The notes under the pieces are model-generated. The model had not been told where the DNA came from, did not search any database, and was given only the letters and a program-made list of their open reading frames with translations. A DNA stretch of 64,000 nucleotides from Draconibacterium sediminis (lineage in GTDB: Bacteria; Bacteroidota; Bacteroidia; Bacteroidales; Prolixibacteraceae): contig NZ_JRHC01000001.1 of assembly GCF_000949475.1 (NCBI RefSeq), forward strand, positions 1,364,001 to 1,428,000, in the 5' to 3' direction. A program made the position numbers and the translations under genes. Positions within the stretch are counted from its first letter, which is position 1. Every line of letters starts with the position of its first letter. This document shows, piece by piece, positions 40,546-59,274 of the stretch.

Positions 40546-41151
40546 ATGAAAAAGTATAGAGGACTACAATTAGGAGTTTTAGTTGTGCTGGTTTATACTT
40601 ATGGTCTAAAAAAAACGGATACCATCGTATTAAATTATGTTGATACCCGGGTAGGTCCAGCAACCAGTATTGCCGATATAACGGTTACAGAAGAGGAGGA
40701 ACCTATGGGATATGTATCACCCATTGTAGGAAACCCATCGGCGCTAACCCATTGGAAACCACAAACTGCTTTATGGACTGATCGTGTAATAACCGTTCCC
40801 GTTCCGTATTGTTACGATCGGGAAAAGATGCAAGGCTTTCGAGGAACCCGTTACCCCAATGGTTCGGTAACCGGAGACTGGGGAGCCATGTGCATAATGC
40901 CTCTTGTAGGAGAGGTGAAAATTAAAGCAAAGGAACGTGCCTCGGCTTTTAGCCATGATACAGAAATTGCAAAGCCGCATTATTATGCTGTTCAGTTAGA
41001 CGATTATAACATAAAAACAGAATTTACAGCAGCTGTTAAAACTGCGTTTTTCCAGTTTCCTTTCCCCGAATCAGAGCAAGCTTCGTTACTGTTTGATGTG
41101 GATTATCTGTCGGGTATCTTCAGAGTTATTCCTGAAACAAAACCGGTATGA
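40546..41151 (+). pseudogene. GH92 N-terminal fragment (truncated by deletion)
   Basis: A 201-codon frame matching only the N-terminal beta domain of a GH92 enzyme: YVDTRVGPATSIADITVTEE, then PMGYVSPIVGNPSALTHWKP and GDWGAMCIMPLVG. GH92 proteins are normally 700-800 residues; the whole catalytic domain is missing and the frame stops at 41149. Immediately after the homology ends, sequence of a mannonate dehydratase begins in another frame (41147-41272). This indicates a deletion that removed the 3' part of this gene and the 5' part of a uxuA paralogue. It is clearly different from the intact neighbour GH92, so it was a separate paralogue, not a recent copy. Confidence 0.85.
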
Positions 41152-43549: not shown

Positions 43550-43576
43550 GTAGGGTAGAGCCATTAAATATTCGTC
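43550..43576 (+). promoter_or_regulatory. ECF-type promoter of the GH109 gene
   Basis: GTAGGGTA (43550-43557), 13 bases, then TTCGTC (43571-43576) followed by AATAA. Three other sites in the region show the same two elements at exactly the same distance. The CGTC -10 core is typical for ECF sigma factors. It ends 44 bases before the ATG. Confidence 0.75.
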
Positions 43577-43620
43577 AATAATTCAAAACAGTTACACGAA
43601 AACTAAAATTAACGAATAAG

Positions 43621-45108
43621 ATGAGTACAAATCGTAGAACATTTTTAAAAAATATTGGACTTGGAGCAGGAGTTGTTGCCAGTACACCACTAATGGCATC
43701 GGGTAGTGTTAGTGAAAAAGAACAGGTTAAATTTATCCGCAAATCGGCTGAGCGACTTCCTTCAATGAACTTTAACATGTGTGGTTATGCCGCACCAAAA
43801 CTGGACAAAGTACGAATTGGTTTTGTAGGAATTGGCGACAGGGGTATTGGTGCAGTAGATCGTATGGGTTTTATTGATGGTGTTGAAGTTACTGCCCTTT
43901 GCGACACACGTCAGGCGGCCATTGATGGAGCCCAGGCTTCTTTGGCAAAATCCGGCCTGCCCAAAGCAAAAGAATTTACAGGAAGCGATACAGCATTTAA
44001 AGCACTGTGCGATAGCGGACTGGTTGACCTGGTTTACATTGCAACCCCATGGGAGTGGCACGTACCTGTTGCTTTGGCAGCAATGCGCGGTGGTAGCCAT
44101 GCAGCTGTTGAAGTTTCAACTGCAAAAACCATGGACGAATGTTGGGAAATGGTTGAGGTTTCGGAACAAACCAAAAAACACTGTGTAATTCTTGAAAACT
44201 GTTGTTACGATTTCTTTGAACTGTTAACCTTGAATATGGCTCGCCAGGGTGTATTTGGCGACCTGGTGCATGGTGAAGGCGCTTACATTCATGATTTGGA
44301 TTACTGGCACTTTAATAAACCACAAGACGATAAACCACGAGGCGATGGAGCCTACGATAAATTATGGCGTTTGCACGAAAACACACGTAAAGCAAACGTT
44401 TACCCAACCCATGGTTTAGGCCCGATTTGCCAGGCAATGGATATTAACCGGGGCGACCGTTTGGATTACCTTACTTCAATGATATCGGACGATTTTACAT
44501 TAAAAAACCGCATAAAAGAATTAGCACCTGATCGTCCGGATTTACAGCAGTTTATAGGTGTTGAAATGCGTGGAAATATGGATATGCAAATGATTCGTAC
44601 CGTTAAGGGGCGTACAATAATGATTCAGCATGATATTTCATCTCCGCGCCCATATTCACGTATTCATATGTTGAGCGGTACTAAATGTTTTGCTCAGAAA
44701 TGGCCATTGCAACACATTGCATTCGGGCACGAAGTTGCCGATGAGGCAAAAATGAAAGAGTTGCAGGAAAAATATACGCCTGAGATTGTTAGTAGAATTG
44801 GTACTATGGCAAAACAAGTTGGAGGTCATGGAGGAATGGACTTCTTAATGGACTGGCGTTTAATCGACTGTTTACGAAACGGTTTACCAATGGATATGGA
44901 TGTTTATGATGCCGCAACATGGTCGTGTATTACGCCATTAAGTGAATGGTCGATCGCAAATGGTTCGAAACCAATCGACGTTCCTGATTTTACCCGCGGT
45001 GCATGGAAAACCAATAAACCGATTGAATTAACATTGAAAGGTGGCGGCACAACAAAAGTGAAAAACCTGAACAATGCCAATTCCGAAGGTCAGCTAAACG
45101 TAAAATAA
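43621..45108 (+). CDS. GH109-type NAD-dependent glycosidase, Tat-exported
   Basis: A 495-residue Gfo/Idh/MocA-fold protein of the GH109 type. These enzymes (alpha-N-acetylgalactosaminidases and relatives) cleave by transient oxidation at C3 with a bound NAD. A twin-arginine signal (NRRTFLKNIGLGAG) allows export of the folded, cofactor-loaded enzyme. The Rossmann motif VRIGFVGIGDRG is near residue 65, and ATPWEWH and EVSTAKTMDE follow as in the oxidoreductase superfamily. HENTRKANVYPTHGLGP, continuing to a DINRGDR segment, is characteristic of GH109. It is a single-gene unit with an ECF-type promoter. Confidence 0.88.
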   Translation: MSTNRRTFLKNIGLGAGVVASTPLMASGSVSEKEQVKFIRKSAERLPSMNFNMCGYAAPKLDKVRIGFVGIGDRGIGAVDRMGFIDGVEVTALCDTRQAAIDGAQASLAKSGLPKAKEFTGSDTAFKALCDSGLVDLVYIATPWEWHVPVALAAMRGGSHAAVEVSTAKTMDECWEMVEVSEQTKKHCVILENCCYDFFELLTLNMARQGVFGDLVHGEGAYIHDLDYWHFNKPQDDKPRGDGAYDKLWRLHENTRKANVYPTHGLGPICQAMDINRGDRLDYLTSMISDDFTLKNRIKELAPDRPDLQQFIGVEMRGNMDMQMIRTVKGRTIMIQHDISSPRPYSRIHMLSGTKCFAQKWPLQHIAFGHEVADEAKMKELQEKYTPEIVSRIGTMAKQVGGHGGMDFLMDWRLIDCLRNGLPMDMDVYDAATWSCITPLSEWSIANGSKPIDVPDFTRGAWKTNKPIELTLKGGGTTKVKNLNNANSEGQLNVK

Positions 45109-45158
45109 GCAGTCGGGAAAAAATAGCTGAACGGACAGAGTATTCTGCCTAAGAATTA

Positions 45159-45166
45159 TAATTTTG
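45159..45166 (+). promoter_or_regulatory. Possible housekeeping -7 box upstream of fecR
   Basis: TAATTTTG matches TAnnTTTG exactly, but no -33 element at the right distance was found and the leader to the fecR start would be about 115 bases. It could give basal expression besides the ECF-type promoter at 45232. Confidence 0.3.
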
Positions 45167-45231
45167 AGCCATATAAATGGCCTGAAAGATTAGAACTTGT
45201 GCCTTAATCTCAAAAAAAAATAAAATTTGAT

Positions 45232-45258
45232 GTAGGGGGTGCACAAGCGGGATACGTC
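45232..45258 (+). promoter_or_regulatory. ECF-type promoter of fecR-susCD
   Basis: GTAGGGGG (45232-45239), 13 bases, then TACGTC (45253-45258) followed by TTATAA. Spacing is identical to the sites at 43550, 54220 and 55178. It ends 26 bases before the fecR ATG. The anti-sigma gene would thus be a target of the sigma factor it controls. Confidence 0.75.
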
Positions 45259-45284
45259 TTATAAAAAGGAATCAATTTGAATTA

Positions 45285-46328
45285 ATGTCTGGTACGAATA
45301 AAAATATCGAACACCTGCTCTCGAAATCCGTTTTTGGTGGATTGAGTGATGAGGAGAAATCGCAGCTCAATGGATGGATTTCAGATTCGGAAGAGAATGC
45401 CCGGGAATACGAGGCTTACCAGCAACTTTGGAAAAAATCGGAAGATTTGGTTGTTGGTGGCGCTATTGACGTTGAGGCTTCTTTGCTAAAAACAAAAGAG
45501 CGAATTTCATTTACCCAATCGAAGAAACGGTGGTTGGTGATTGCAAGGCAGGTAGCTGCTGTTTTATTGGTGTCAATTGCAATTTCCTCGCTGTATAAAC
45601 ATATTTCGTCGTCAGGGAAAGAGCATGTTGTGTACCAGGATATATCAACAGCTTTTGGCACACAAACACAGTTTGAACTGGCTGATGGAACCAAGGTTTG
45701 GTTAAACTCGGGAAGCCGCCTGCACTATCCAAACTCTTTCGATAATTTGGAAGAAAGACGTATTGAATTGGTTGGTGAAGCCTTTTTCGAGGTGACAAAA
45801 AATGCAGCGAAACCATTCATTGTGCAAACATCGGCGCTTGATGTTAAAGTGCTGGGAACGGCGTTTAATGTTTCGGCCTACGAGAATGCACCTGAGTTAA
45901 CTGTTGCTCTCAAAGAAGGAAAAGTAAGTCTTCTTAAAGCAAATTCCGACGATGAGGATGCTTTGGTTTCGTTAACACCAAACGAAGTGGCTATTTACAA
46001 TAACGAGAAACATAATATCGTAATTCAAAAAGAAAAGAGTTTGAATAAGTACAATGCCTGGAAAGATGGAAAGATTGTATTTTTTGAGGATGGAATTGAA
46101 ACGGTAGTACAAAAACTGGAAAATTGGTACAATGTGGATATTGAACTTGCTGACGACGATTTGAATGTGTTGATATTTACAGCAACATTCATTAACGGAT
46201 CGATCGATCAGGTGCTTGATTACCTCTGTATCTCATCGCCTATTGAATACTCCATAATTCCGGCATCGAAAGATCAGGACGGTACTTATTCGAAAAGAAA
46301 AATCATATTAAAGGAGCGCAATAAATAG
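45285..46328 (+). CDS. fecR: FecR-type anti-sigma factor / signal transducer
   Basis: A 347-residue inner-membrane regulator. The N-terminal cytoplasmic part (residues 1-82) binds an ECF sigma. One membrane helix lies at about 84-103 (WLVIARQVAAVLLVSIAI). The periplasmic FecR domain contains GTQTQFELADGTKVWLNSGS and VLGTAFNVSAY, and a C-terminal STN-like domain (about 280-345) contacts the receptor. In most Bacteroidota loci an ECF sigma gene lies directly upstream of fecR. Here the only ECF sigma in the window is 8 kb downstream. The next gene is a SusC with an STN domain, the expected signalling partner. Confidence 0.92.
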   Translation: MSGTNKNIEHLLSKSVFGGLSDEEKSQLNGWISDSEENAREYEAYQQLWKKSEDLVVGGAIDVEASLLKTKERISFTQSKKRWLVIARQVAAVLLVSIAISSLYKHISSSGKEHVVYQDISTAFGTQTQFELADGTKVWLNSGSRLHYPNSFDNLEERRIELVGEAFFEVTKNAAKPFIVQTSALDVKVLGTAFNVSAYENAPELTVALKEGKVSLLKANSDDEDALVSLTPNEVAIYNNEKHNIVIQKEKSLNKYNAWKDGKIVFFEDGIETVVQKLENWYNVDIELADDDLNVLIFTATFINGSIDQVLDYLCISSPIEYSIIPASKDQDGTYSKRKIILKERNK

Positions 46329-46355
46329 AAGTAGTTTTTAAGTTTTAAGAAAAAA

Positions 46356-46412
46356 ACACAGGGAGGATTGGAACTCTTCCCTGTGTAACTTACCTGAATT
46401 GCCCTCAGGTAA
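46356..46412 (+). repeat. Two consecutive hairpins between fecR and susC
   Basis: Hairpin 1: a 12-base stem, ACACAGGGAGGA (46356-46367) with 46375-46386, one G-U pair, 7-base loop. Hairpin 2: TTACCTGA (46390-46397) with TCAGGTAA (46405-46412), perfect, 7-base loop. Neither is followed by a T tract, so they are probably RNA processing or stability elements that set the ratio of FecR to SusC. Confidence 0.6.
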
Positions 46413-46509
46413 TAAATTTGATTGAATCTAATTCACGTCAAAAATAATAAAAAATGCAGATTGACAGGTTTAACTGTCGATACCATTTTATTTTTAAGTG
46501 TATTAGATT

Positions 46510-49500
46510 ATGAAACTGGTAATTTTTGTAGCAACATTACTAGCCCTCTCATTTATCTCAATAACGGCTAATTCGCAGGATTCGCGCATTAGCCTAAATC
46601 TGGTTGATGTAAGCATTAAAGAAGTTTTGCTGGAAATTGAAAATCAAAATCAATATTATTTTCTATACAACAACAATTTAATGGATGTTGAACGAAAAGT
46701 TGATTTGAATATCCAAAACAAGAGCATAATTGAAGTTGTAGAACTTCTTTTCGAGGGGCAGAATGTGGATTTTACGATAAAAGACCGGCTCGTAATTCTG
46801 TTTCCTGTTGATGTGGATGAAATCGATAGCGATAAAATTATTGTTGAAGGGAAAGTCGTTGACAAGTCGGGGCAAGCACTACCGGGAGTTACAGTAATCG
46901 TTCGCGGAACAATATTGGGTGCCGTAACAGATGCTGAAGGAAATTTTAGTCTTAACGTAATTAAAACACCGGCAATTCTCGAATTCTCGTTTGTTGGTAT
47001 GGAAAGCCAGACGGTGACTTATACCGAAAAGCAATTTTTAATTGTAACCATGAACCAGTTGAGCCGCAATATCGATGAGGTAATTGTGGTGGCCTATGGC
47101 ACGCAGTCGGCATCTTCGCTTACCGGTTCTGTTCAGGCATTTAACCAGCGACAGTTGGCGAATGTAACCAGTCCACATTTGCTGAATCAGTTGCAGGGTG
47201 AAGCAACAGGAGTCCTGGTTTCCAGTTCGTCAGGAACACCCGGCGAAAAACCAAGCCTGCGCATTCGCGGCGAAGGATCAATCAACTACACAAACGAACC
47301 ACTTTGGGTGGTTGATGGTGTTATTTTTGGAACTACTTCGCCCGATATAAATCCTAATGATATTGAGTCGGTTTCGGTACTTAAAGATGCTGCAGCAGCG
47401 GCCTTGTACGGTTCGCGGGCTTCAAACGGTGTCATCATGGTTCGGACCAAAACCGGAAAAATTAACTCATCAAGTTTTAACTTAAAAACCAGTACCGGAA
47501 TTACGCAGGTGAATCACGGTAATTTAACCCTGATGAACGGGCAGGAGTTGTACGATTATGTGATGTCGATGGATGGCGATAAGTTACCGGGGCAGTTTCC
47601 TCCGGCCAATTCTGAAAATGTAATAAATGGTGTCGATTGGCAGGATATTGCCTTTCAAAACGGCATTGTTCACGATTATAATTTATCGTACAGCGGCGGA
47701 AATGAAAAAACAATGTTGTACACCAGCTTGGGCTACTTTAACGAAGATGGAGCTGCGCGCGGGCACCAATGGGAAAAGTTCTCGGGCCGCGTAAACCTCG
47801 ACTATAAAGCTTCTGATAAATTAAAATTGATACTGAAAGTGGAAGGGATCTTCCAGAATAATTTCAACAACGAAAACGATTTGGTGTTTGGCTCGTATGT
47901 GCTGCTTCCGTGGGATAATCCTTACTTCAGCGACGGCACAATAAAAGTTGGCCGGACAGAAGCGGATGGCGTGAAGTGGTATAGCCGAAATCAGGGGAAT
48001 CCCTTGTACGAAATGCAATACAACTACATTAAAAGCCGAAGCACCCAGTACATGAACGACGTAGGAGTGGAATACAAACTCACCGACTGGCTTACCTTTG
48101 TTTCGAACAACCGGATTAAAACAAGAACATCGCGATTTGAACAGCTCTCTGATTCGCGTACACCGGATGGAGAAGCTGATTCCGGAATTTTATACAACGC
48201 TTATGGATATACGCGTGATTTGTCGACCAGTAATGTGTTGCGTTTTAACAGAGAATATACCGATCATTCGGTATTTGGAATTGTAGCTTACGAGTATACG
48301 CAGTCGTACATTGATGGAATGAACGGCGAAGGGAAAGGTATTTACCCCTCGCTTGAAATTTTGAACGGAGCTTCAGAGTCAAAATCCATTGGAGGAAGTA
48401 AATCAAAATCGGCCTTTTTATCCATTTTGTCGAATGTGCAATACGTGTACAAAAACAAGTATATGATGCAGCTTTCTTACCGCCGCGACGGATCGTCGAG
48501 ATTTGGTGCCAACCAACGATTCGGAGATTTTTATTCGGTGGGTACGTCGTGGATTGTCACAAAAGAGGATTTTATGCAGTCGCTGGGTTTCGTAAATAAT
48601 TTAAAGCTGCGCCTTAGTTATGGTTCGGTAGGAAATGCCAATATTGCCGATTACGTAGCGCTGGGACTTTATAACATGACCGTGCAATACAATGGCGAAC
48701 CCGGAGGATTTCCGCGCAGGTTACCTAATCCCGATCTTACCTGGGAGTCGAACAAAAACTTCAATTTCGGAATTGACACGCGATTGTTCGACCGGGTAAA
48801 CATAACAGTTGATGCCTATGATAAAAGGACTGATAACCTGCTGCAGGATGTTCCGTTACCATTGGTAACCGGCTTTTACTGGTATACCGACAATGTGGGC
48901 TCAATACAAAACCGCGGACTGGAATTCAGCCTGGAAACCGAAATTGTAAAGTCATCTCCATTTTTATGGAATACCAGCCTGAATATGAGTTTTAACAAAA
49001 ACAAGGTGCTGAAATTAAACGATGGGAAAGACATTTCGAAGGGCACCAAAATTATTCGCGAAGGCTGGGATATCAACACCTGGTACATGCGTAAATGGGC
49101 AGGTGTAAACCCATCGGATGGTAATCCGTTATGGGAAAAAGTAACCACAGCTGAAGACGGCACGAAAATCATTGAAAAAACATCGAAATACAGCGAGGCA
49201 ACGTTGCAAAACATGGATAGCTCGTCGCCCAAATTTTTTGGAGGTTTTATGAATACCTTCGTCTACAAACAGTTTAAGCTTGATGCCAACTTTAACTTTG
49301 TTTATGGCAATAAAATCTATCATTTGTTGCGCGAGTCGCTAGATAACGACGGTGCTTACCCCACCTATAACGCAATAAAATTACCCGACGGTTGGAGCCG
49401 CTGGGAAAAACCGGGCGATATTGCCACACATCCGCGGCCGGTGTTGCTGGGCAATAAACTGTCGAACAAACCATCGTCGCGTTATTTAGAGGACGGTAGT

Positions 49501-49719
49501 TACCTGCGCCTGAATTACCTGAGTTTATCTTATTCAATACCTGTAAAGTGGGTTCATAAAGTAGGGTTAAACCGTGCCGAACTTAAACTTGCCGGCGAAA
49601 ATCTGTGGACATTAACCAACTTTTCAGGAATGGATCCTGAAGTGGGAATTCAAGGATATGGCGGAACGCTGTATCCGGTTACGCGCAAGTATATATTTGG
49701 AGTAGAAGTAAACTTTTAA
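46510..49719 (+). CDS. susC: SusC-type receptor with STN signalling domain
   Basis: A 1069-residue TonB-dependent transducer. After the signal peptide (ending near ITANSQ) residues about 26-98 form an STN domain (ISLNLVDVSIKEVLLEIEN), the part that reports substrate binding to FecR. A carboxypeptidase-regulatory-like domain follows at about 115-200 (GKVVDKSGQALPGVTVIVRG), then the plug with VVAYGTQSASSLTGS and WVVDGVIFG, and the barrel. It is a paralogue of the receptor at 56287 (shared GWSRWEKPGDIATHP), which lacks the STN domain. It therefore appears to be the sensor copy of the locus. Confidence 0.95.
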   Translation: MKLVIFVATLLALSFISITANSQDSRISLNLVDVSIKEVLLEIENQNQYYFLYNNNLMDVERKVDLNIQNKSIIEVVELLFEGQNVDFTIKDRLVILFPVDVDEIDSDKIIVEGKVVDKSGQALPGVTVIVRGTILGAVTDAEGNFSLNVIKTPAILEFSFVGMESQTVTYTEKQFLIVTMNQLSRNIDEVIVVAYGTQSASSLTGSVQAFNQRQLANVTSPHLLNQLQGEATGVLVSSSSGTPGEKPSLRIRGEGSINYTNEPLWVVDGVIFGTTSPDINPNDIESVSVLKDAAAAALYGSRASNGVIMVRTKTGKINSSSFNLKTSTGITQVNHGNLTLMNGQELYDYVMSMDGDKLPGQFPPANSENVINGVDWQDIAFQNGIVHDYNLSYSGGNEKTMLYTSLGYFNEDGAARGHQWEKFSGRVNLDYKASDKLKLILKVEGIFQNNFNNENDLVFGSYVLLPWDNPYFSDGTIKVGRTEADGVKWYSRNQGNPLYEMQYNYIKSRSTQYMNDVGVEYKLTDWLTFVSNNRIKTRTSRFEQLSDSRTPDGEADSGILYNAYGYTRDLSTSNVLRFNREYTDHSVFGIVAYEYTQSYIDGMNGEGKGIYPSLEILNGASESKSIGGSKSKSAFLSILSNVQYVYKNKYMMQLSYRRDGSSRFGANQRFGDFYSVGTSWIVTKEDFMQSLGFVNNLKLRLSYGSVGNANIADYVALGLYNMTVQYNGEPGGFPRRLPNPDLTWESNKNFNFGIDTRLFDRVNITVDAYDKRTDNLLQDVPLPLVTGFYWYTDNVGSIQNRGLEFSLETEIVKSSPFLWNTSLNMSFNKNKVLKLNDGKDISKGTKIIREGWDINTWYMRKWAGVNPSDGNPLWEKVTTAEDGTKIIEKTSKYSEATLQNMDSSSPKFFGGFMNTFVYKQFKLDANFNFVYGNKIYHLLRESLDNDGAYPTYNAIKLPDGWSRWEKPGDIATHPRPVLLGNKLSNKPSSRYLEDGSYLRLNYLSLSYSIPVKWVHKVGLNRAELKLAGENLWTLTNFSGMDPEVGIQGYGGTLYPVTRKYIFGVEVNF

Positions 49720-49727
49720 ATCAGCAA

Positions 49728-51212
49728 ATGGAATTCACGATGATAAGGAGATTGTTTTTATACCTGCTAATTTTATTTGGTACTTTCGGCTGTAACTTAA
49801 ATTACCAGCCTTACGAAGGGATTCCAGAGTCGGAACTGAAAGAAGACATTATTGGTTTAAATGGCGCCACAGTTGGGAATTACAACTATTTGAAGGATAG
49901 TTATTACCAGCGTAATTTCCACTTTTTTGGCGAATATGGCGGCGATAATGTTTCGTTGAGCGGAACAACCAGCGACGATTTATTTTATTGCTATAACTAC
50001 CAGCATTTTCCGGCTATGTATACCACCTCTCACTTCTGGGAAAAAGCGTACCAGTTAATGGTGGGTTGTAACAAAGTGATTTTGTCAGTTGAAGATGATT
50101 CTTCAGCCGAACTAAAACAACTAAAAGGCGAAAATCTGTTTTTACGGGCACAAACGCTGTTTCACTTGGTAAATACGTTTGGTAGGCCTTATTACCAAAG
50201 TCCGGAGACGAATCTGGGTGTTCCAATAAAATTAGACGACCAGGTTATAAATGTGCCGAATCGTGGAACCGTAAAAGAAGTTTACGACCAGATAATTACC
50301 GATTTGTTGCAGGCCGAAGCGCTGATGGGAAGCGAGCGGTCGAATATTTATGCGTCGAAAGAAGTGGCGCAGGCCATGCTTTCGCGCGTGTATCTGTACA
50401 TGTCGGGTACACCCGAAAATCCAAATGTAAGCTATGCGCAAAAAGCAAAAGAATATGCCAGTAAAGTCATCGAATCCGACCGATACCGGCTTTTGGGAAC
50501 CGAAGATTTTAAAACGTATTTCCGAAAATTACCCGAGCAAAATACCGAAACAATATTTGCGGTAAAACACAATGTTGATGTCGACGATCGTGGGTGGGAA
50601 TCAATCGGTTCCATGTATAATCACATCGCCAGTCAGGGCTGGGGCGAAATGTATGCATCTGAACCTTACCGCGATTTGCTTGACGAGAATCCAGAAGATG
50701 CACGCCATGCTTTTATCGAACCGCAATACGAAAGCGACGGTGTTACTTTAAAAGAACGAAATGGCTACCCGATATACTACATCAACAAGTTTTCGATGCA
50801 GGAAGAACGGCCCACTTTAAGTTCGCCGGTGTACCTGCGTTTAGCCGAAATGTATTTAAACCGCGCCGAGGCCAATGCCAAACTGGGCCTAAACGGCGAG
50901 GCCATTAACGATGTGAATTTAATTCGTGAACGTGCCGGTTTAAGTGGTGATGCGCTTTATTCTCCAAACGATTTAAAAGGCCGGGAAAGTGTGTTCGCAG
51001 TGGTGCTTGAAGAGCGCCGACTGGAACTGGCTTTTGAAGCACAACGAAAATGGGATATTTTCCGGAATGGTTTGACTTTGGATCGCAACTACCCCGGAAC
51101 CCACGAGCAGGGTGACGCCTTGTTGTTTGTGCCTCCCGATCATCCACGAGTTGTGTTTTACATCCCCGAATCGCAAATTCTTGTGCAGGATAATTTAGTT
51201 CAAAATCCGTAG
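49728..51212 (+). CDS. susD: SusD-type lipoprotein, partner of the STN receptor
   Basis: A 494-residue SusD-like surface lipoprotein. ATG 49740 (MIRRLFLYLL) gives the classical signal with the lipid-attachment cysteine in FGTFGC; ATG 49728 adds four residues. FFGEYGGDNVSLSGTTSDD, WGEMYASEPYRDLLDENP and the C-terminal LEERRLELAFEAQRKWDIFR are shared with the SusD at 59290, showing that the two SusCD pairs arose by duplication. It starts 8 bases after susC. The next gene follows after 30 bases and may belong to the same transcript. Confidence 0.95.
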   Translation: MEFTMIRRLFLYLLILFGTFGCNLNYQPYEGIPESELKEDIIGLNGATVGNYNYLKDSYYQRNFHFFGEYGGDNVSLSGTTSDDLFYCYNYQHFPAMYTTSHFWEKAYQLMVGCNKVILSVEDDSSAELKQLKGENLFLRAQTLFHLVNTFGRPYYQSPETNLGVPIKLDDQVINVPNRGTVKEVYDQIITDLLQAEALMGSERSNIYASKEVAQAMLSRVYLYMSGTPENPNVSYAQKAKEYASKVIESDRYRLLGTEDFKTYFRKLPEQNTETIFAVKHNVDVDDRGWESIGSMYNHIASQGWGEMYASEPYRDLLDENPEDARHAFIEPQYESDGVTLKERNGYPIYYINKFSMQEERPTLSSPVYLRLAEMYLNRAEANAKLGLNGEAINDVNLIRERAGLSGDALYSPNDLKGRESVFAVVLEERRLELAFEAQRKWDIFRNGLTLDRNYPGTHEQGDALLFVPPDHPRVVFYIPESQILVQDNLVQNP

Positions 51213-51242
51213 GACCAAAATGGTCATTGTCAATCAATTTAT

Positions 51243-53513
51243 ATGCAAAATAAAGCTATCATCGTAAAAACAATTTTCGTATTCGCTGTAAGTGTTTTAA
51301 TGCTGGCGTGTAATACGCAGCCTCCCAACACAATTGATGCGAAAATCAGTTATCCGGCCGATGGAACTGTTTTTCCACCCGAATTTCCGTCTCCAACATG
51401 TTTTTGGGAAACTACTGACAACACAAATCCGTTGTGGAAGATAAGTGTGCTGGATGCTGAAAATCAAGTTCTGCACGAATCAAAAGTTAGCAGCGAAATG
51501 CGCTGGTCGCCGTCAGCTAAAGTTTGGGAAGCGCTTAAACAACAAGCAAAACAGCAGTCATTATCACTTGTTTTGGCAGCTATCGACGATAAACAAAAAG
51601 CATTTCCGGTAGATACGGTTTCCTTTCAGTTTTCTAAAGATTCGGTTGGGGCACCCATTTTTTACCGCTCGGTGCCGCTGCCTTTTAAGTTTGCCCGCGA
51701 AAATTTAACCGAAGTGCGTTGGCAACTGGGCAATATCGGTTCTTCCGACGCTCCGGCTACTGTTTTAAGCGATATTCCGGTTTGTGGTAACTGCCATTCG
51801 GTTTCGGCCGATGGAGGAACTTTGGCCATGGATGTGGATGCCCGCGACGAAAAAGGAGCGTATGCAATTGTTGAGGTGGGCGAAGAAACCGTTATGTCGG
51901 AAAAGGAGATCATGAACTGGAGCAATTTTGTAAACGGTGAGTTTACTTACGGTCTGCTTTCGCAAATATCGCCCGACAGCCGATATGTGGTTAGTACACT
52001 TAAAGACTCGGAGATTTTTGTCGACCGTAACGACCTTGAATATTCGCAGTTGTTTTTTCCGTTTAAAGGTATTTTGAGTGTTTACGATCGGGTAGAAGAA
52101 AAATACTTCGAGTTGGAAGGAGCCAACGATACCAATTACGTACACAGCAATCCCAGCTGGGGGCCAAATGGCGAGTACATTTACTTTACGCGCTCGCGTG
52201 CTGCTCACCTGGAAGAAAGTGGAATTTTCAGAGGTTCGCAAGCCGTCGATTACAAAGCGTACAACAAATTTTTGAATGCTTTTTTAGAACGCGAAAAACT
52301 TTTTAAGTTCGATATTTACCGCATTCCTTTTAACAATGGCAAAGGCGGAAAAGCCGAGCCCGTTCCGGGAGCTTCAAACAATGGTATGAGCAATTATTTT
52401 CCACGTTTTACTCCCGATGGTAAATTCATGATCTTTTGTAAAGCCGAAAGTTTTATGTTGCTAATGCCCGACAGCAAACTGTATATTCAGCCGGTTGAAG
52501 GAGGCGAAACACGTTTAATGAATTGTAATTCGGAGAACATGAACTCGTGGCACTCGATTTCGCCAAATAGCCGCTGGATGGTGTTTTCATCAAAAAAATA
52601 CGGGCCATACACGCAGTTGTTGCTCACGCATATTGACGAGGATGGAAATGACTCGCCACCGGTTTATCTCGAGTATTTTGCTTCAGGAAACCGGGCTGCC
52701 AATATTCCTGAATTTATTAATATGTCGCCCGAAGCAAAATTTGAAATCGTTCCTAAATTTTTGGAAGACGATGCTTTTGCATTGCGTATGGGTGAAATCA
52801 AATCAAAGGAAAATCAGTACGGGGAAGCGCTGGAATATTTTAATAAAGCGCTTGAATTTAATCCCAAAAACGCGGATGCACATCATGGCAAAGCACATGC
52901 GCTGATGATGCTGAAACAGCCAACTGAAGCAATAAAGCATTTTAATAAGGCAGTAGAGCTAAATCCCGGGAAAGCGGAATATTTGCTAAGCCGTGGAAAT
53001 GCCAATCTTACGTTAAAAAACGAGGATAAAGCTTTAGATGATTTTAACCGCGCCATTGCCATCGACGAGTTTAATTTTATGGCTTACAGCAACCGCGGAA
53101 TGTTGTGGCGCCAAAAGCGAAATCTGGAAAAAGCACTGGCCGATTTTAACCGCTCAATCGAGCTGAATCCCGAAAGTAATGTTACGTATATCAACCGTGG
53201 CGTTATTCATGCTATTACCAAAAAATACGACGAGGCACTTGTCGATTTTGAGGCTTCGATTCGATTAAATCCGTCCGATTTGTCGGCTTATTTTGGTAAA
53301 GCTAAAGTGTATCAGGAAATACAGGAAAATAACAAGGCGCTGGAGGTGTATTCGCAGGCCGTTTCGCAGGCGACGAATAACCCCGAAACTTATTTTAACC
53401 GTGCAATGTTTTTTATGCAAACCAACGATAAAACATCGGCAAGGAACGACTTGCAAATTGCAGCCGGAATGAATTACCAACCGGCACTAAAAATGTTAAG
53501 CGAGATGCGCTGA
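51243..53513 (+). CDS. PD40-propeller and TPR lipoprotein with CxxCH motif
   Basis: A 756-residue lipoprotein (signal ending at C23, LMLAC). Residues about 25-170 are beta-rich, and a CGNCHSVSADGG motif lies at C181-C184-H185. Then a TolB/PD40-type propeller follows (ISPDSRYVVSTLKD, PSWGPNGEYIYFTRSR, PRFTPDGKFMIFCKAE, SPNSRWMVFSS). From about residue 520 at least six TPR units follow (YGEALEYFNKALEFNPKNAD and similar). The CxxCH is the covalent heme c attachment motif, so this could be a heme protein, but a structural metal or disulfide role is also possible. It follows susD within the ECF-regulated unit and may be an accessory surface protein or a sensor. Confidence 0.8.
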   Translation: MQNKAIIVKTIFVFAVSVLMLACNTQPPNTIDAKISYPADGTVFPPEFPSPTCFWETTDNTNPLWKISVLDAENQVLHESKVSSEMRWSPSAKVWEALKQQAKQQSLSLVLAAIDDKQKAFPVDTVSFQFSKDSVGAPIFYRSVPLPFKFARENLTEVRWQLGNIGSSDAPATVLSDIPVCGNCHSVSADGGTLAMDVDARDEKGAYAIVEVGEETVMSEKEIMNWSNFVNGEFTYGLLSQISPDSRYVVSTLKDSEIFVDRNDLEYSQLFFPFKGILSVYDRVEEKYFELEGANDTNYVHSNPSWGPNGEYIYFTRSRAAHLEESGIFRGSQAVDYKAYNKFLNAFLEREKLFKFDIYRIPFNNGKGGKAEPVPGASNNGMSNYFPRFTPDGKFMIFCKAESFMLLMPDSKLYIQPVEGGETRLMNCNSENMNSWHSISPNSRWMVFSSKKYGPYTQLLLTHIDEDGNDSPPVYLEYFASGNRAANIPEFINMSPEAKFEIVPKFLEDDAFALRMGEIKSKENQYGEALEYFNKALEFNPKNADAHHGKAHALMMLKQPTEAIKHFNKAVELNPGKAEYLLSRGNANLTLKNEDKALDDFNRAIAIDEFNFMAYSNRGMLWRQKRNLEKALADFNRSIELNPESNVTYINRGVIHAITKKYDEALVDFEASIRLNPSDLSAYFGKAKVYQEIQENNKALEVYSQAVSQATNNPETYFNRAMFFMQTNDKTSARNDLQIAAGMNYQPALKMLSEMR

Positions 53514-53596
53514 AACGGGCATCATTAGCAGTGTTCAAGAGTTTTGTTAAATAGGAAAACAAATGTGATTAACCAGTGAATTTAGGCTTTAATGGC

Positions 53597-53604
53597 TATA
53601 TTTG
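53597..53604 (+). promoter_or_regulatory. Housekeeping -7 box of the ECF sigma gene
   Basis: TATATTTG fits TAnnTTTG exactly and is identical to the box before the lacI-type gene. It ends 18 bases before the ATG at 53623. The -33 element is weak. No ECF-type element is present here, so the sigma gene would be expressed constitutively at a basal level. Confidence 0.6.
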
Positions 53605-53622
53605 AGCCGAGAGAAAACAGGA

Positions 53623-54210
53623 ATGCCGGAAAGCGAAATCCAAAATAATAGCTTCGTATTAGCTGAACTTGCCAGGGGGCAGGAAAGAGCGTTCGACTTT
53701 ATTTTCAGAAAATACTACAAAGCACTGTGTGCCCAGGCAACGGTGTATGTAAAAGATATTGATGAAGCTCAGGGCATTGTTCAGGAATCGTTTATTAAAC
53801 TTTGGGGAAAACGCGAAGAGGCAGAGTCGATAAAAAACCTGCCCAGCTACCTCACTTCGATGGTGCGTAACCAGTGTATCGACCATATGCGAAAGGTGAA
53901 TGTGTTGAATAAAACGCATCAGCAGGGAGCCGCAAACGACGAGGTTGAAAACACCACCGAAAACCTGGTTTTGGCACACGAGTTCGAGGAAAAACTGGTT
54001 GTAGTATTATCGAATTTACCCGAACGCTGCCGCATTGCTTTTGAATACAGTCGCTTTGAGAACCTCACCTATCCCGAGATTGCTGAAAAAATGGGAATCT
54101 CGGTAAAAGCTGTTGAAGCACTGATTAGCCGTGCCTTAAAAACACTACGCGCCGAACTAAAAGAATATCTTCCACTTCTGGCTCTGCTCTTCAAAATATC
54201 ACAATTTTAA
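53623..54210 (+). CDS. ECF sigma-70 factor (FecI-like)
   Basis: A 195-residue ECF sigma from ATG 53623. A TTG at 53602 would extend it by seven residues but lies inside the -7 box and is rejected. Region 2 is seen in the stretch leading to DIDEAQGIVQESFIKLWGK, with DHMRK after it. Region 4 is in LPERCRIAFEYSRFENLTY, PEIAEKMGISVKAVEALI and SRALKTLRAEL. It has its own housekeeping-type promoter. Four sites with a shared TAGGG-N17-type and CGTC promoter flank it within 10 kb on either side, so it most likely reads these. Its anti-sigma partner is most likely the FecR at 45285. Confidence 0.92.
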   Translation: MPESEIQNNSFVLAELARGQERAFDFIFRKYYKALCAQATVYVKDIDEAQGIVQESFIKLWGKREEAESIKNLPSYLTSMVRNQCIDHMRKVNVLNKTHQQGAANDEVENTTENLVLAHEFEEKLVVVLSNLPERCRIAFEYSRFENLTYPEIAEKMGISVKAVEALISRALKTLRAELKEYLPLLALLFKISQF

Positions 54211-54219
54211 TTTCTCAAA

Positions 54220-54246
54220 GTAGGGTACACGCGTCTCACTTTCGTC
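54220..54246 (+). promoter_or_regulatory. ECF-type promoter of the Crp-like gene
   Basis: GTAGGGTA (54220-54227), 13 bases, then TTCGTC (54241-54246) followed by AATAA. Both elements and the following AATAA are identical to the GH109 promoter at 43550, while the 13-base spacers are unrelated. It ends 55 bases before the start codon. Confidence 0.75.
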
Positions 54247-54301
54247 AATAAGCAAATGGCAGACGAACTGCATCATTCAGTAAATTAATAGTGAGATTGA
54301 A

Positions 54302-54994
54302 TTGAAAAAGAGTAGAATAAATAGTACAACCGTTAACGTAAGGTTTATTCATTTATTTAAACACTTAACGCTTGAAGAGCTGGCTGGCTTGAGTAAGGAT
54401 TTACAGTTGGTTGAGCTGAATGTTGGCGAAACGCTTTACCGCCCCGGACAAAAATTGAAAGGGATTTATTTTATTGAGCGCGGGGTATTAAAACAGTTCA
54501 AAATCGGATCGAAAAATAAGGAGCAGATTTATCAGATACTTTGTTATAACGATATGGTGGGTTTCGATTCGGCATTAAACCAGATACCTGCCACCGAGTT
54601 TACAACCTGCATGGAAAAGGCCCGGTTGATTTTTGTTCCCATTCAAATTGTAAACAAACTATTTGCCGAAAATGTACAGGTTCGGATGATGCTTTTACAA
54701 CAAAGCTGCCGGGAGTTGGGAGCCGCACAAAATACCATTCTTAGTTTTTCGCAGAAAACGAACAGGCAGCGGATTATTGACCTGTTACTGGATTTGCGCG
54801 AACGGTTTAACCTGGACCAGGACAATATGATAAACGTTTCGATAAAACGAATGGAAATTGCCGGACATATTGGAGCTAACGAAGAAAATACAATACGAAT
54901 ATTATCCGATTTACGAAAAAAACGACTTATACAAACTAAAGGCAGAAAAATAGGCATACTGGAATTAAACCGTTACGGAGAAGCTTATTCCTGA
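54302..54994 (+). CDS. Crp/Fnr-family regulator
   Basis: A 230-residue regulator with an N-terminal cyclic-nucleotide-binding-type beta-roll (ELNVGETLYRPGQKLKGIYF, IERGVLKQFKIG) and a C-terminal winged HTH (MEIAGHIGANEENTIRILSD, LRKKRLIQTKGRKIGILEL). The frame appears to start with TTG at 54302, because a stop codon lies just upstream and no ATG occurs in the first 80 codons. The canonical cAMP-contacting GE-xx-RS motif is not present, so the ligand is doubtful. With an ECF-type promoter in front it would be a second-tier regulator of the ECF response. Confidence 0.85.
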   Translation: MKKSRINSTTVNVRFIHLFKHLTLEELAGLSKDLQLVELNVGETLYRPGQKLKGIYFIERGVLKQFKIGSKNKEQIYQILCYNDMVGFDSALNQIPATEFTTCMEKARLIFVPIQIVNKLFAENVQVRMMLLQQSCRELGAAQNTILSFSQKTNRQRIIDLLLDLRERFNLDQDNMINVSIKRMEIAGHIGANEENTIRILSDLRKKRLIQTKGRKIGILELNRYGEAYS

Positions 54995-55317
54995 TCCGAT
55001 TTATTCAACTTCCGCGCTTCAACTTTCTTAGGTTGAGGCTTATACAAAACATAGCATAATCGACTTTGGGTTGATGTCAATTTGCTGTGGATTTGCGCAA
55101 TTATAAGAATTAAGCAATAGTACTTGCCGTAAATTAGACAAAAATTCATCTTTCTTTCATTTTTATCAATTTTTGGCATAGGGTGTCCTGCATTGAGGCT
55201 CGTCAGTTTATAAATAATTGGCGGGAGCTTATTCTTGAGCCACGCCGAGAGGATACAAGAATTAATAATTAGTTGAGAGAATTATTTATGTCAAATTAAT
55301 CTACAAAAATCAAAAAA
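54995..55317. other. Intergenic stretch with ECF-type promoter
   Basis: This 323-base gap holds no gene. It contains the ECF-type promoter at 55178-55204 and a leader of about 110 bases before the discoidin lipoprotein gene. No clear terminator for the Crp-like gene was found. Confidence 0.55.
55178..55204 (+). promoter_or_regulatory. ECF-type promoter of the discoidin-susCD unit
   Basis: ATAGGGTG (55178-55185), 13 bases, then CTCGTC (55199-55204). It is the most diverged of the four sites but keeps TAGGG, CGTC and the exact spacing. The leader to the ATG at 55318 is about 113 bases. Confidence 0.65.
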
Positions 55318-56229
55318 ATGAAAAGAAGTAATTATGAAAAAATGCTGCATAACGGTGCTACCAAACTCTCCGTTTTTATGCTTGCATTGGCGGCAGTTTT
55401 CTTTACTGCAAGTTGCGACGACGAGGAAGTTGGTACCCTGCCAACCACTGTAACCGGCGAGGTTACTGAAATTGCTGACATTAACGCAGTGGTTAGCGGA
55501 AGTCTTACCGACAACGGTGGATCGGATGTACTTGCATTGGGAATTTGCTGGACTGATGAAGACCGTGAACCAACAACAATGGATAATTTTGTTCCTGTTG
55601 GAAAATTCACCCAGAATGGAATACCGGAAGAATACTGGAACTATTCGATTACGCTGGGTGGTTTAACCGCAAAATCGGACTACAAAGTGCGCGCTTACGC
55701 TGCCAACGAAGCCGGTACTTCGTATGGCGAAACAATCGCATTTACAACCAAAGCTGGAAAAACCTTCCATCCGCTTACTGCAGGCATGTTAGAGACTTTT
55801 ACACAGGAAATCTGGGAAGGCCCGAAAGAAAATCTTGTTGATGGTGATCCTTCAACTTTCTGGCATTCGGCATGGTCTGATGAGGAAACTGCAATCGTAC
55901 AACCACTTCCTCACTACATTCAAATCACTTTCCCTGAAGCCAAATATATTGGTGGATTCCAGTTCTGGACCCGTTCACCTTCTGCAAGAGGTATCGACCC
56001 GGCTCAGTTCGATGTTCAGACCAGCTCAGATGGTACAAACTATACTACCGTGTGGACTTCAGATCGTTTTGATGCAAAAGTACGCCCCGACTATAACGAG
56101 TTGTCGCTGGACAAAAACTACTCTTCAAAATATTTCCGCATCCGGATTTTGGATACCCGTACCACCGGTCAGTCATTTACCACAATGGGCGAGTTGAAAG
56201 TATTCGATGATGGTTTGCTTGATTACTAA
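55318..56229 (+). CDS. Discoidin (F5/8C) lipoprotein with Fn3-like domain
   Basis: A 303-residue lipoprotein; the attachment cysteine is C33 (FFTASC). If the second Met (55342) is the start, the signal is shorter and more typical. Residues about 40-145 form a fibronectin-III-like domain (ITLGGLTAKSDYKVRAYAAN, then GTSYGETIAFTT). Residues about 150-298 form an F5/8 type C domain (LVDGDPSTFWHSAWSDEE, PHYIQITFPEAKYIGGFQFW, KYFRIRILDTR). Such proteins act as surface glycan-binding proteins that help SusCD capture polymer. It opens the third SusCD unit. Confidence 0.85.
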   Translation: MKRSNYEKMLHNGATKLSVFMLALAAVFFTASCDDEEVGTLPTTVTGEVTEIADINAVVSGSLTDNGGSDVLALGICWTDEDREPTTMDNFVPVGKFTQNGIPEEYWNYSITLGGLTAKSDYKVRAYAANEAGTSYGETIAFTTKAGKTFHPLTAGMLETFTQEIWEGPKENLVDGDPSTFWHSAWSDEETAIVQPLPHYIQITFPEAKYIGGFQFWTRSPSARGIDPAQFDVQTSSDGTNYTTVWTSDRFDAKVRPDYNELSLDKNYSSKYFRIRILDTRTTGQSFTTMGELKVFDDGLLDY

Positions 56230-56286: not shown

Positions 56287-59274
56287 ATGAGATATATACA
56301 AAATTTCGGTTCTGATCGAAAAAACAATAAAAACACTTTCCTTTCGGGCATAAACAAGGCAATCGGCCTGGTTATGTTTATGTTCTTGTTTGCAATAGTT
56401 GCAAATGCACAATCAACCACAATTTCCGGTACCGTAACGGATAGCAAAACCAACGAATCGTTACCGGGTGTTAGTATTATTATTAAAGGCACCACAATGG
56501 GTATTACCAGCGATTTTGATGGTAATTATTCGCTTGAAGTGCCCGATGCCAATGCAACTTTGGTGTTTTCGTTTGTAGGTTACGAAAAACAGGAGATTGC
56601 AACAGAAGGCAAAACTACAATTGATGTTTCGTTGGTAAGCTCAACTACCGACCTCGACGAAGTAATGGTTGTGGCATACGGAACTACCAAAAAATCGAAT
56701 TTAACAGGTTCGGCAGTTGCCATCGACGCTGAAGAACTAAAAGATGTTTTTGCTCCAAACGTAGCAGCAATGTTACAAGGTAAAGTGGCAGGTATGCACA
56801 CCAGCGCCAGCAGTGGTAAACCGGGTGCAGGAACACAAATTACTATTCGTGGTAAAGGTTCGTTGTCGGGTACTACCAAACCACTTTGGGTTGTTGATGG
56901 TATTATTATGGGTAACGACGATCCGGGTTTTAGCCCAGACGACATTGAAAGTATTACCGTTTTAAAAGATGCATCGGCAACCTCGTTATATGGTTCGCTG
57001 GCTGCAAACGGTGTTATTCTGTTGCAAACCAAAAGAGCTGAAAAAGGTATGTCGGTTGTTAATGTTAACGCATCATACGGTGCTACTACATTTAATACCG
57101 GAAACTTTTCGTTAATGAACTCTCAGGAGTTATACGACTACCAAAAAACCTGGAATCCGAACATTACTGAAGATGTATTGAATACCGATACCGACTGGAT
57201 GGATATTGGTACACAAACCGGACAAGCACAGGAATACAATGTAAACTACTCGGGTGGAAACGATGTTATTCTGGCTTATTTGTCGGGTACGTACTACAAC
57301 GAAACAGGTGCATTGAAAGGCTACGAATATGAGCGTTTTTCTGGTATTGCCAATCTTGAAATCAATGCTTCAAAACGACTGGTGATCAAAGCAAATCTTT
57401 CAGGTAACTATACCAATACATTCAACCAGGAGCACTCAACTTATAACATGTTTACTTACATGCCATGGGATGAGCCTTATTTACCTGACGGATCAGTTTT
57501 GGATCCACGAGTTGACAGTGGCAAAAAATACTTGCTTGACAATGGTAAAGTATGGTATGGCCGCGATGAAAACAACTATTTGTATGACCTTCAATACAAT
57601 TACGGCAAATCGCGCGGTAACAATTTCCGCATCAATGTTGGCGTTGATTACAAAATTAACGAGTGGCTTACATTCTCGTCGATGAACAACGTTGCCTTAG
57701 GTTACGGACAAAACGAATCGTACACCGATCCACGTTCAATTGGAGGCCAGGCCGACCGTGGAAGATTATATGAAGCATATAGCTTTAGCAGAACACGTTT
57801 CACCAACCAGATGCTTCGTTTTAAGAAAACATTCGACAAGCATAACCTTAATGCCTTTGTGGCATGGGAATACAGCGATTATTATTCAGATGGTGCCAAT
57901 GCAACAGGTAAAGGTGTTGCGGCTGGTTTAACTGTGCTTAATGCAACTGCCGAAGCTGTTAGTGTAGGTGGTTCGAAATGGGAAAGTGCCAAACAAAGTA
58001 TGTTGGTAAACTTGCAGTATGCTTACGATAACAAATACCTGGCAACTGCATCTTTCAACCGTCAGGGTTCAAGTAGTTTCGGCCCGAACAATCAATACGG
58101 TAATTTCTGGTCGGCAAGTTTAGGTTGGAACCTTCACCACGAAGATTTCATGAGCAACGTAAAATGGGTTGATGTATTGAAATGGTCAGCCAGTATGGGA
58201 CAGGTTGGTAACGCTCCGGGCGGATTCCAGTACCTTGGTTACTATGCATTTGTTGCTCAATACAACGGAAACAGTGCAGCAACTCCATACCAAAAAGGTA
58301 ACCCTGATATTAGCTGGGAGAAAGTTACCAGCTACAACACTGCTATTAACACACGTTTATTTAACCGCGTTGGTTTAAACCTCGATGTGTATTATAAAAA
58401 CAGCGACAACCTGTTAACTTATGTACCACTTCCGGCATTGTCGGGTTACAATGGTGTTTGGATGAACGTTGGTCGTGTTACCAACAAAGGTTACGAATTA
58501 TCGGTAACTCCTGAGATCGTAAAAACGTCGAAATTTAACTGGGACATGACCATCAACTTTGCCTATAACAAAAACCGGGTAGAGGAATTGTTTGAAGATA
58601 AAGCTTACACATCAGGTAACGTGCGTATTGAGCAAGGTTACGACATGGATTCGTACTACCAGCGTATTTGGTACGGTGCAAATCCATCGAACGGTGAGCC
58701 TTTGTGGGAGCAGATTGTAGTAAACGAAGATGGTACTGAATCCGTTGAGTTGACATCGAACTATGCCGATGCAACTTTACAGTATACCGGCTCGAAAGCT
58801 ACACCAACATACACCGGTGGAGTTTTGAACACCTTTACTTACGATAACTTTACTTTAACTGCAAACATCAGTTTTGTTGAAGACATTTATAAATACAACG
58901 GTAACCGCGAGTTATTTGACAGCGACGGTTCGTATGCATCGTTTAACAACATGAATCTGGCTGATGGCTGGAGTCGTTGGGAAAAACCGGGCGATATTGC
59001 TACGCATCCGGCACCATTTAACGGTGGTGTTAATGCGAACAAAAACTCATCGCGTTACCTGGAAGATGCCAGTTACATTCGTTTGCGCAACGTAACCCTG
59101 TCGTACCGTTTGCCAAAAGTAGCTACTGAGGCTATCAAGGTTAAAAACGCTTCGGTTTATATCAGTGGCGACAACCTGGTAACTATTTCCGATTGGTCGG
59201 GAATGGATCCTGAAACAGGAGCGCTTTACCCACTGTCGAAAAAGATATTGGCAGGTATTAAAATCGACTTTTAA
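56287..59274 (+). CDS. susC: SusC-type TonB-dependent receptor (no STN domain)
   Basis: A 995-residue receptor. The signal region (IGLVMFMFLFAIVANAQ) ends near residue 42, after an unusually long, charged N-terminal stretch. The carboxypeptidase-regulatory-like domain is at about 45-125 (GTVTDSKTNESLPGVSIIIKG), followed by the plug (VVAYGTTKKSNLTGSAV, WVVDGIIMG) and the barrel. It is paralogous to the receptor at 46510 over plug and barrel but lacks the STN extension, so it would transport without signalling. It is preceded by the discoidin lipoprotein gene and followed after 15 bases by its SusD. Confidence 0.95.
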   Translation: MRYIQNFGSDRKNNKNTFLSGINKAIGLVMFMFLFAIVANAQSTTISGTVTDSKTNESLPGVSIIIKGTTMGITSDFDGNYSLEVPDANATLVFSFVGYEKQEIATEGKTTIDVSLVSSTTDLDEVMVVAYGTTKKSNLTGSAVAIDAEELKDVFAPNVAAMLQGKVAGMHTSASSGKPGAGTQITIRGKGSLSGTTKPLWVVDGIIMGNDDPGFSPDDIESITVLKDASATSLYGSLAANGVILLQTKRAEKGMSVVNVNASYGATTFNTGNFSLMNSQELYDYQKTWNPNITEDVLNTDTDWMDIGTQTGQAQEYNVNYSGGNDVILAYLSGTYYNETGALKGYEYERFSGIANLEINASKRLVIKANLSGNYTNTFNQEHSTYNMFTYMPWDEPYLPDGSVLDPRVDSGKKYLLDNGKVWYGRDENNYLYDLQYNYGKSRGNNFRINVGVDYKINEWLTFSSMNNVALGYGQNESYTDPRSIGGQADRGRLYEAYSFSRTRFTNQMLRFKKTFDKHNLNAFVAWEYSDYYSDGANATGKGVAAGLTVLNATAEAVSVGGSKWESAKQSMLVNLQYAYDNKYLATASFNRQGSSSFGPNNQYGNFWSASLGWNLHHEDFMSNVKWVDVLKWSASMGQVGNAPGGFQYLGYYAFVAQYNGNSAATPYQKGNPDISWEKVTSYNTAINTRLFNRVGLNLDVYYKNSDNLLTYVPLPALSGYNGVWMNVGRVTNKGYELSVTPEIVKTSKFNWDMTINFAYNKNRVEELFEDKAYTSGNVRIEQGYDMDSYYQRIWYGANPSNGEPLWEQIVVNEDGTESVELTSNYADATLQYTGSKATPTYTGGVLNTFTYDNFTLTANISFVEDIYKYNGNRELFDSDGSYASFNNMNLADGWSRWEKPGDIATHPAPFNGGVNANKNSSRYLEDASYIRLRNVTLSYRLPKVATEAIKVKNASVYISGDNLVTISDWSGMDPETGALYPLSKKILAGIKIDF

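Follow-up and report, generated by a model that had tools for sequence, protein, structure and literature searches.

A two-part promoter element predicted for a FecI-type extracytoplasmic function sigma factor at a FecR-SusCD locus of Draconibacterium sediminis

The Fec system of Escherichia coli, which serves ferric citrate, comprises a FecI-type sigma factor, FecR, and a TonB-dependent receptor with a signalling domain (FecA), and fecI is not autoregulated (PMC9249621; this and the other sources are cited from excerpts). In the control of Bacteroides polysaccharide utilization loci (PULs), a sigma factor, an anti-sigma factor, and SusC signalling drive SusCD units; a mapped 5′ end at PUL24 of B. 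thetaiotaomicron lacks a housekeeping consensus, and the excerpts of these reports give no promoter motif for the PUL sigma factors (PMC3878776, PMC11501099). A regulon reconstruction of 2013 called the prediction of promoters controlled by extracytoplasmic function (ECF) sigma factors challenging and in need of start-site data (PMC3878776), and for one such sigma factor a 2025 study obtained no motif that reached significance (PMC12596196). Here we describe a 64,000-nucleotide stretch of the D. sediminis genome (contig NZ_JRHC01000001.1, positions 1,364,001–1,428,000; hereafter the window), in which the two-part element TAGGG-N17-CGTC (17 bases separating TAGGG and CGTC) precedes four units around a FecI-type ECF sigma factor gene. 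Sequence comparison leads us to conclude, with a probability of about 0.88, that the four elements are promoters of the locus-encoded sigma factor within a cell-surface signalling scheme, GTAGGG or ATAGGG acting as the −35 box and CGTC as the −10 box; this value applies to both statements jointly.

The locus resembles Fec in having a FecI-type sigma factor, FecR, and a TonB-dependent receptor with a signalling domain. It differs in that it serves SusC/SusD glycan uptake, has several target units, among them a regulator and an enzyme, has TAGGG and CGTC as its boxes, and, in Draconibacterium, carries the sigma gene as the last gene of the fecR unit. With Bacteroides PUL control it shares the sigma factor, the anti-sigma factor, and SusC signalling, but here a motif could be defined by comparison. 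The SM6 motif of Flavobacterium psychrophilum targets type IX secretion system (T9SS) and other genes and, in the excerpt, not a FecR-SusCD unit (PMC9723704). SigW-1 and SigH-1 of B. thetaiotaomicron are also ECF sigma factors, and SigW-1 partly controls a locus with SusCD and sulfatase genes; in contrast to the present case, the −10 box is described as resembling TGTT, no significance was reached for the SigW-1 motif, and the excerpt describes no TAGGG/CGTC pair (PMC12596196). SigP of Porphyromonas gingivalis is a Bacteroidota ECF sigma factor with a proposed promoter motif as well, but that motif, proposed for T9SS genes, consists of one AT-rich block and, as far as the excerpt describes it, has no relation to the two-part element (PMC4800418). 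We did not find the element described in the literature searched, the coverage of which was partial, and do not claim it to be unpublished; in two papers, TAGGG occurs within primer sequences. The locus is best described as a putative FecI/FecR/SusCD cell-surface signalling regulon, a known kind of system, with a promoter that can be predicted sharply.

The pattern RTAGGGKR-N13-HWCGTC matched the window four times, always on the plus strand: before the GH109-like gene (promoter 1, 43550–43576), fecR (promoter 2, 45232–45258), the Crp-like gene (promoter 3, 54220–54246), and the discoidin-susCD unit (promoter 4, 55178–55204). All four sites are intergenic and in the sense direction, the downstream starts being at 43621, 45285, 54302 (TTG), and 55318; a prior interpretation of the same DNA (the sequence-only reading) had reported these exactly spaced sites, and each was present as reported. 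Shuffled sequences gave a mean of 0.01 matches, an optimistic figure because the pattern was derived from the four sites themselves. When the core was searched in the 6 Mb genome as TAGGG-Nk-CGTC, k = 13 to 21 gave 7, 8, 5, 8, 9, 2, 4, 2, and 5 matches, respectively (50 in total; 220 for the reversed pattern). The nine matches at k = 17 (the four window sites and five others) compare with 41 across the other eight spacings, and four of the nine fall within 11.7 kb (Poisson chance ca. 4 × 10^−9, calculated post hoc). None of the remaining five is promoter-like: four are inside open reading frames (ORFs), and the intergenic one faces the 3′ end of an opposite-strand gene of 960 amino acids, beyond which there is only an ORF of 111 amino acids, ca. 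270 bases on and antisense to that gene. Thus, the core is concentrated at the locus and is not frequent in the genome. If the four sites were chance matches to an after-the-fact pattern, the fitting of the pattern to them and the background rate elsewhere would be as expected; the clustering, together with the matrix and the ortholog loci described below, contradicts this explanation, to which we give almost no weight.

A matrix was trained on 24 sites from loci whose sigma factors are 46–67% identical to that of the window, none of them from close relatives of the window. Over the window, promoters 4, 3, 1, and 2 ranked first to fourth (25.5, 23.7, 22.2, and 19.5), below the range of the training sites (27.0–38.6). 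The fifth score was 6.7 at 60497 (minus strand, inside the second susD), and a further runner-up (2.3, at 13064) also lies inside an ORF. With the next score in the window this low, the remark in the sequence-only reading that the mannosidase genes lack the motif held good.

We compared the sites among the window and its five closest relatives. Promoters 3 and 4 are exact in all six genomes and promoter 1 in five of five, the sixth being cut by a contig end; promoter 2 is the least conserved, exact in three of five. Both boxes are invariant in 17 of the 17 orthologous GH109, Crp, and discoidin promoters, in which 0 of 27 core columns vary, compared with 23 of 39 in the spacer and 30 of 60 just upstream. 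The leader 3′ of promoter 4 (55205–55240) is nearly identical in the six genomes, more so than the upstream sequence. In one relative (L069), ca. 190 additional bases lie between the sigma gene and promoter 3, which is intact.

When 61 genomes were searched with the sigma protein, we obtained 13 full-length orthologs, counting that of the window (57–100% identity; next, 42%), and a fragment in genome G018 (55% identity over residues 5–91). The 13 orthologs form one clade with a support of 100/100 among 84 sigma factors. Among the seven more distant orthologs, the element lies between the sigma gene and fecR at L074, L075, and L078 and between the sigma gene and the discoidin unit at L072 and L073; L076 and L077, which are the same loci as L107 and L111 below, have a spacing of 16 and no exact element. 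In a scan of GTDB contigs, we took the best 80 of 162 loci, of which 26 with at least 46% sigma identity (L099–L124) were regarded as orthologs and 54 with 29–40% identity (L125–L178) as controls. The two ortholog sets are not independent because eight of the 26 loci, and probably also L124 (the G018 fragment), are in both.

The exact element was present in 22 of the 26 ortholog loci (sigma identity 46–100%; 28 sites). Two contigs are cut at the sigma gene, L117 starting there and L124 ending inside it; their neighbourhoods are thus partly missing, and the remaining sequence has no site. For spacings of 8 to 26, the ortholog loci had 28 matches at 17 versus 13 at the other 18 spacings combined, two of the 13 being the spacing-16 sites, and the control loci had four matches at 17. 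We determined the targets in a subset of 16 of these loci, calling FecR by similarity to the window protein (by Pfam in L106, L116, and L121) and sulfatases by Pfam. In 15 of the 16, 18 sites lie 32–92 bases before an ORF: fecR (14), discoidin (two, in Carboxylicivirga), or sulfatase (two, in Arenibacter and Flavivirga); for L122, the fecR ORF as called runs across the site. The position of the site is kept despite changes in gene order, the sigma gene being located before fecR, after the operon, or divergently. The element could be followed through Draconibacterium, Maribellus, Carboxylicivirga, Sunxiuqinia, Mangrovibacterium, Mariniphaga, Arenibacter, and Flavivirga. It has the form of an ECF-type promoter, with two boxes at a fixed spacing (16 in two orthologs), in one orientation and near a start. 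The pairing of sigma factor and promoter is supported because the element follows the sigma orthologs across genera. The proposal of the sequence-only reading that the local sigma factor (53623) reads the sites is therefore supported by ortholog co-occurrence, the matrix, the invariant boxes, and off-locus matches that look like chance (described below).

The same loci bear on whether the elements might be binding sites of a conventional activator rather than promoters. A Crp-like gene does lie within the cluster, and its product could act on the neighbours. However, the element is non-palindromic, has a single orientation, and lies near the start with a spacing of the −35/−10 type, and it is present in the L072–L078 stretches, where no Crp-like relative was found. 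Such an activator is thus a very improbable explanation.

Several observations weigh against assigning the element to this sigma factor. Two of the 26 ortholog loci (L107 and L111) have a spacing of 16 (N16). Among the close relatives, promoter 2 has one mismatch in D. mangrovi (L067) and is degenerate in D. orientale (L070). The training sites of the matrix were chosen by their exact core; the matrix is independent in lineage and flanks, not in the core. A match outside the locus (L270), from a genome that lacks the sigma factor, scores 21.6, as much as window sites, but lies in an ORF. Sigma factors only 33–35% identical to that of the window are accompanied by the same element in two control loci, L134 (Allomuricauda; sigma-FecR pair with the element at L134:9989–11518, FecR called by Pfam) and L174 (an uncultured member of Flavobacteriaceae; L174:9983–11517); in both, it lies between the sigma gene and FecR, which is followed by a TonB-receptor-like gene. 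We accordingly rejected the idea that only the ortholog clade has the element. The remaining two matches among the controls, in L164 and L176, fall inside ORFs. Finally, TAGGG is the most enriched 5-mer in the 120 bases before 80 fecR genes (20 of 20 from this genome, 45 of 45 from G003, and 15 of 30 from G006), occurring in 21 regions versus 5.7 expected; it was found in two on the other strand, and the reversed word in 10.

The last point deserves closer inspection. Second in enrichment was GTGTA (23 regions versus 7.5 expected), and in the last 60 bases before fecR, TAGGG occurred in 17 regions, compared with one on the other strand and seven for the reversed word. In this genome, eight of the 20 fecR genes have TAGGG within 160 bases upstream, with none on the other strand and three for the reversed word. 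The exact pair with CGTC at N17 is found in only one of the 80 regions, the window's own (L081); L092 and L217, a fecR region ca. 11 kb from the Maribellus ortholog, have the pair with one mismatch in TAGGG. At L080, L086, L235, and L262, TAGGG before other fecR genes is followed by a GTAC box ca. 16 bases on. On the sigma tree, the presence of TAGGG requires 10 changes versus a mean of 14.0 after shuffling, and five of the eight members of the group sister to the sigma clade have TAGGG before their fecR.

From these counts, we read TAGGG as a common class of −35 box combined with differing −10 boxes. Specificity probably lies in CGTC and the spacing because other fecR genes have TAGGG upstream but no CGTC at N17. 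Since TAGGG is not private to this sigma factor, paralogous sigma factors may cross-read the sites. The sites could then be ECF promoters read by another FecI-type sigma factor, alone or together with the local one; this would suit the 20 fecR genes of the genome, the general enrichment of TAGGG before fecR, and its presence before the fecR genes of the nearest sister sigma factors. On the other hand, the restriction of the exact pair to the window's own region among the 80, and the fact that the element tracks the orthologs of the local sigma factor between genomes, make this alternative unlikely, and we retain the local sigma factor as the probable reader. More tentatively, with the odds somewhat against it, the FecI-type sigma factors of Bacteroidota might use a two-part code, in which a widely shared −35 TAGGG is combined with a sigma-specific −10 box and spacer length, such as CGTC at 17 for this sigma factor and GTAC- or GTGTA-like boxes for others.

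To define the extent of the regulon, we searched RTAGGGKR-N13-HWCGTC in the 61 genomes and obtained 56 matches. Of these, 25 belong to the ortholog locus, which has matches in 11 of the 13 ortholog genomes; the remaining two (G006 and G010) have a spacing of 16. The 31 off-locus matches compare with 48 for the reversed pattern. We inspected 21 of the 31: 20 are in ORFs (for 19, ORFs of at least 150 codons, mostly on the opposite strand), and one is intergenic with no ORF close downstream. Possible exceptions are G055 and G057, which have no sigma match at 1e-25 but contain four and five pattern matches, respectively. Eight of these nine sites are in mechanically called ORFs of at least 150 codons, some of which may be spurious, and no ORF follows the ninth closely. 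Another off-locus match (L272) has a matrix score of 16.0. A genome-wide dispersed regulon was not supported, off-locus matches being no commoner than those of the reversed pattern in these pattern searches, which weak sites could escape. The regulon appears to be one locus.

Protein-family searches bore out the gene names of the sequence-only reading (GH109, FecR, SusCD, Crp-like, discoidin, and ECF sigma factor), and all of the genes are on the plus strand. The GH109-like gene (43621–45108; PF21252 and PF01408) encodes a protein of the Gfo/Idh/MocA fold with a twin-arginine-like start. It is followed by fecR (45285–46328; PF04773 and PF16344), the presumed membrane regulator of the sigma factor, with a predicted membrane-spanning stretch (hydropathy peak of 2.03 at residue 85 on a simple scale). 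Next are susC (46510–49719; TIGR04056) with an STN signalling domain (PF07660, residues 49–99), susD (49728–51212; PF07980 and PF14322), and a gene for a TPR and PD40 repeat protein (51243–53513; protein-family match). The sigma gene (53623–54210; start codon common to six genomes) matches TIGR02985 with 151 bits (cut-off, 126.4) and is not of the PF07638-only type. The Crp-like gene (54302–54994, TTG start inferred; PF00027 and PF13545) precedes a gene for an F5/8 type C (discoidin) lipoprotein-like protein (55318–56229; PF00754), a second susC (56287–59274; no STN at E 1e-6), a second susD (59290–60969; protein-family search), and a DUF5077-DUF3472 gene (61050–62390), which from its order and strand probably ends the discoidin-susCD unit. 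Thus, the locus contains a FecI-type sigma factor, its own FecR, an STN-bearing TonB-dependent receptor, and a candidate sigma-specific promoter 5′ of the receptor unit, the latter in the window and at the 14 fecR sites of the ortholog loci.

The sigma gene itself lacks the element, which was found upstream of it in none of the 25 loci with sequence there (best plus-strand matrix score of at most 0.3 in 25 of 25). In this it resembles the sigma gene of E. coli Fec, which is not autoregulated (PMC9249621). Instead, as the sequence-only reading had noted, a box of the TAnnTTTG type, TATATTTG, is located at 53597–53604 (plus strand); it is kept in five of the six close genomes and may be a housekeeping −7 box. 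A consensus scan of the window gave 41 sigma-70-like sites versus 43.1 in shuffles and 14 terminators versus 19.1, with no plus-strand terminator between 46481 and 55199. This absence speaks weakly for read-through into the sigma gene because the scan counts do not exceed those of the shuffles.

In the following scheme, we infer binding, start sites, signal flow, ligand, and feedback. In the resting state, the sigma gene would be weakly transcribed from a housekeeping promoter, and membrane-bound FecR would hold the sigma protein. Upon binding of its glycan by the STN-bearing SusC, FecR would free active sigma factor, which would start four units: the GH109-like gene, fecR-susC-susD-TPR, the Crp-like gene, and discoidin-susC-susD-DUF3472. 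The Crp-like regulator may relay the signal onward. In Draconibacterium, read-through from the fecR promoter into the sigma gene would give positive feedback because the sigma gene ends the fecR unit.

To the left, a mannosidase cluster (6405–43036) has its own LacI-type regulator, SusCD, five GH38 genes, and one GH92 gene, along with genes for a mannonate dehydratase (UxuA), a PfkB-type sugar kinase, and a KDPG-type aldolase. The kinase and aldolase genes, which adjoin the GH109-like gene, were not found in ca. 2.2 kb upstream of the GH109 gene in L067 and L069–L071, and the D. mangrovi flank upstream of the GH109 gene has only stretches of 65–74% identity elsewhere in this genome. The mannosidase cluster is best seen as a separate unit without an ECF site. 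A short second GH92 ORF (40546–41151, 201 amino acids) covers only part of the GH92 N-terminal domain and looks truncated. Genes for a phage-type integrase and a MobA/VirD2-like relaxase (143–1402 and 5222–6124) suggest that a mobile element lies at the left end. At the other end, just beyond the last unit, lies a gene of the APH phosphotransferase family (62489–63583, minus strand).

Bacteroidota have many FecI-type sigma factors wired to glycan uptake. If the assignment made here is true, one signal would link two pairs of SusCD with an enzyme and a Crp-like regulator in this organism, and the combination of an orthologous sigma factor and the stretch before fecR would provide a recipe for other sigma factors. 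If the tentative two-part code is also true, sequence alone could suffice to read the promoters of many of the dozens of FecI-type sigma factors per genome and, through them, the corresponding glycan regulons.

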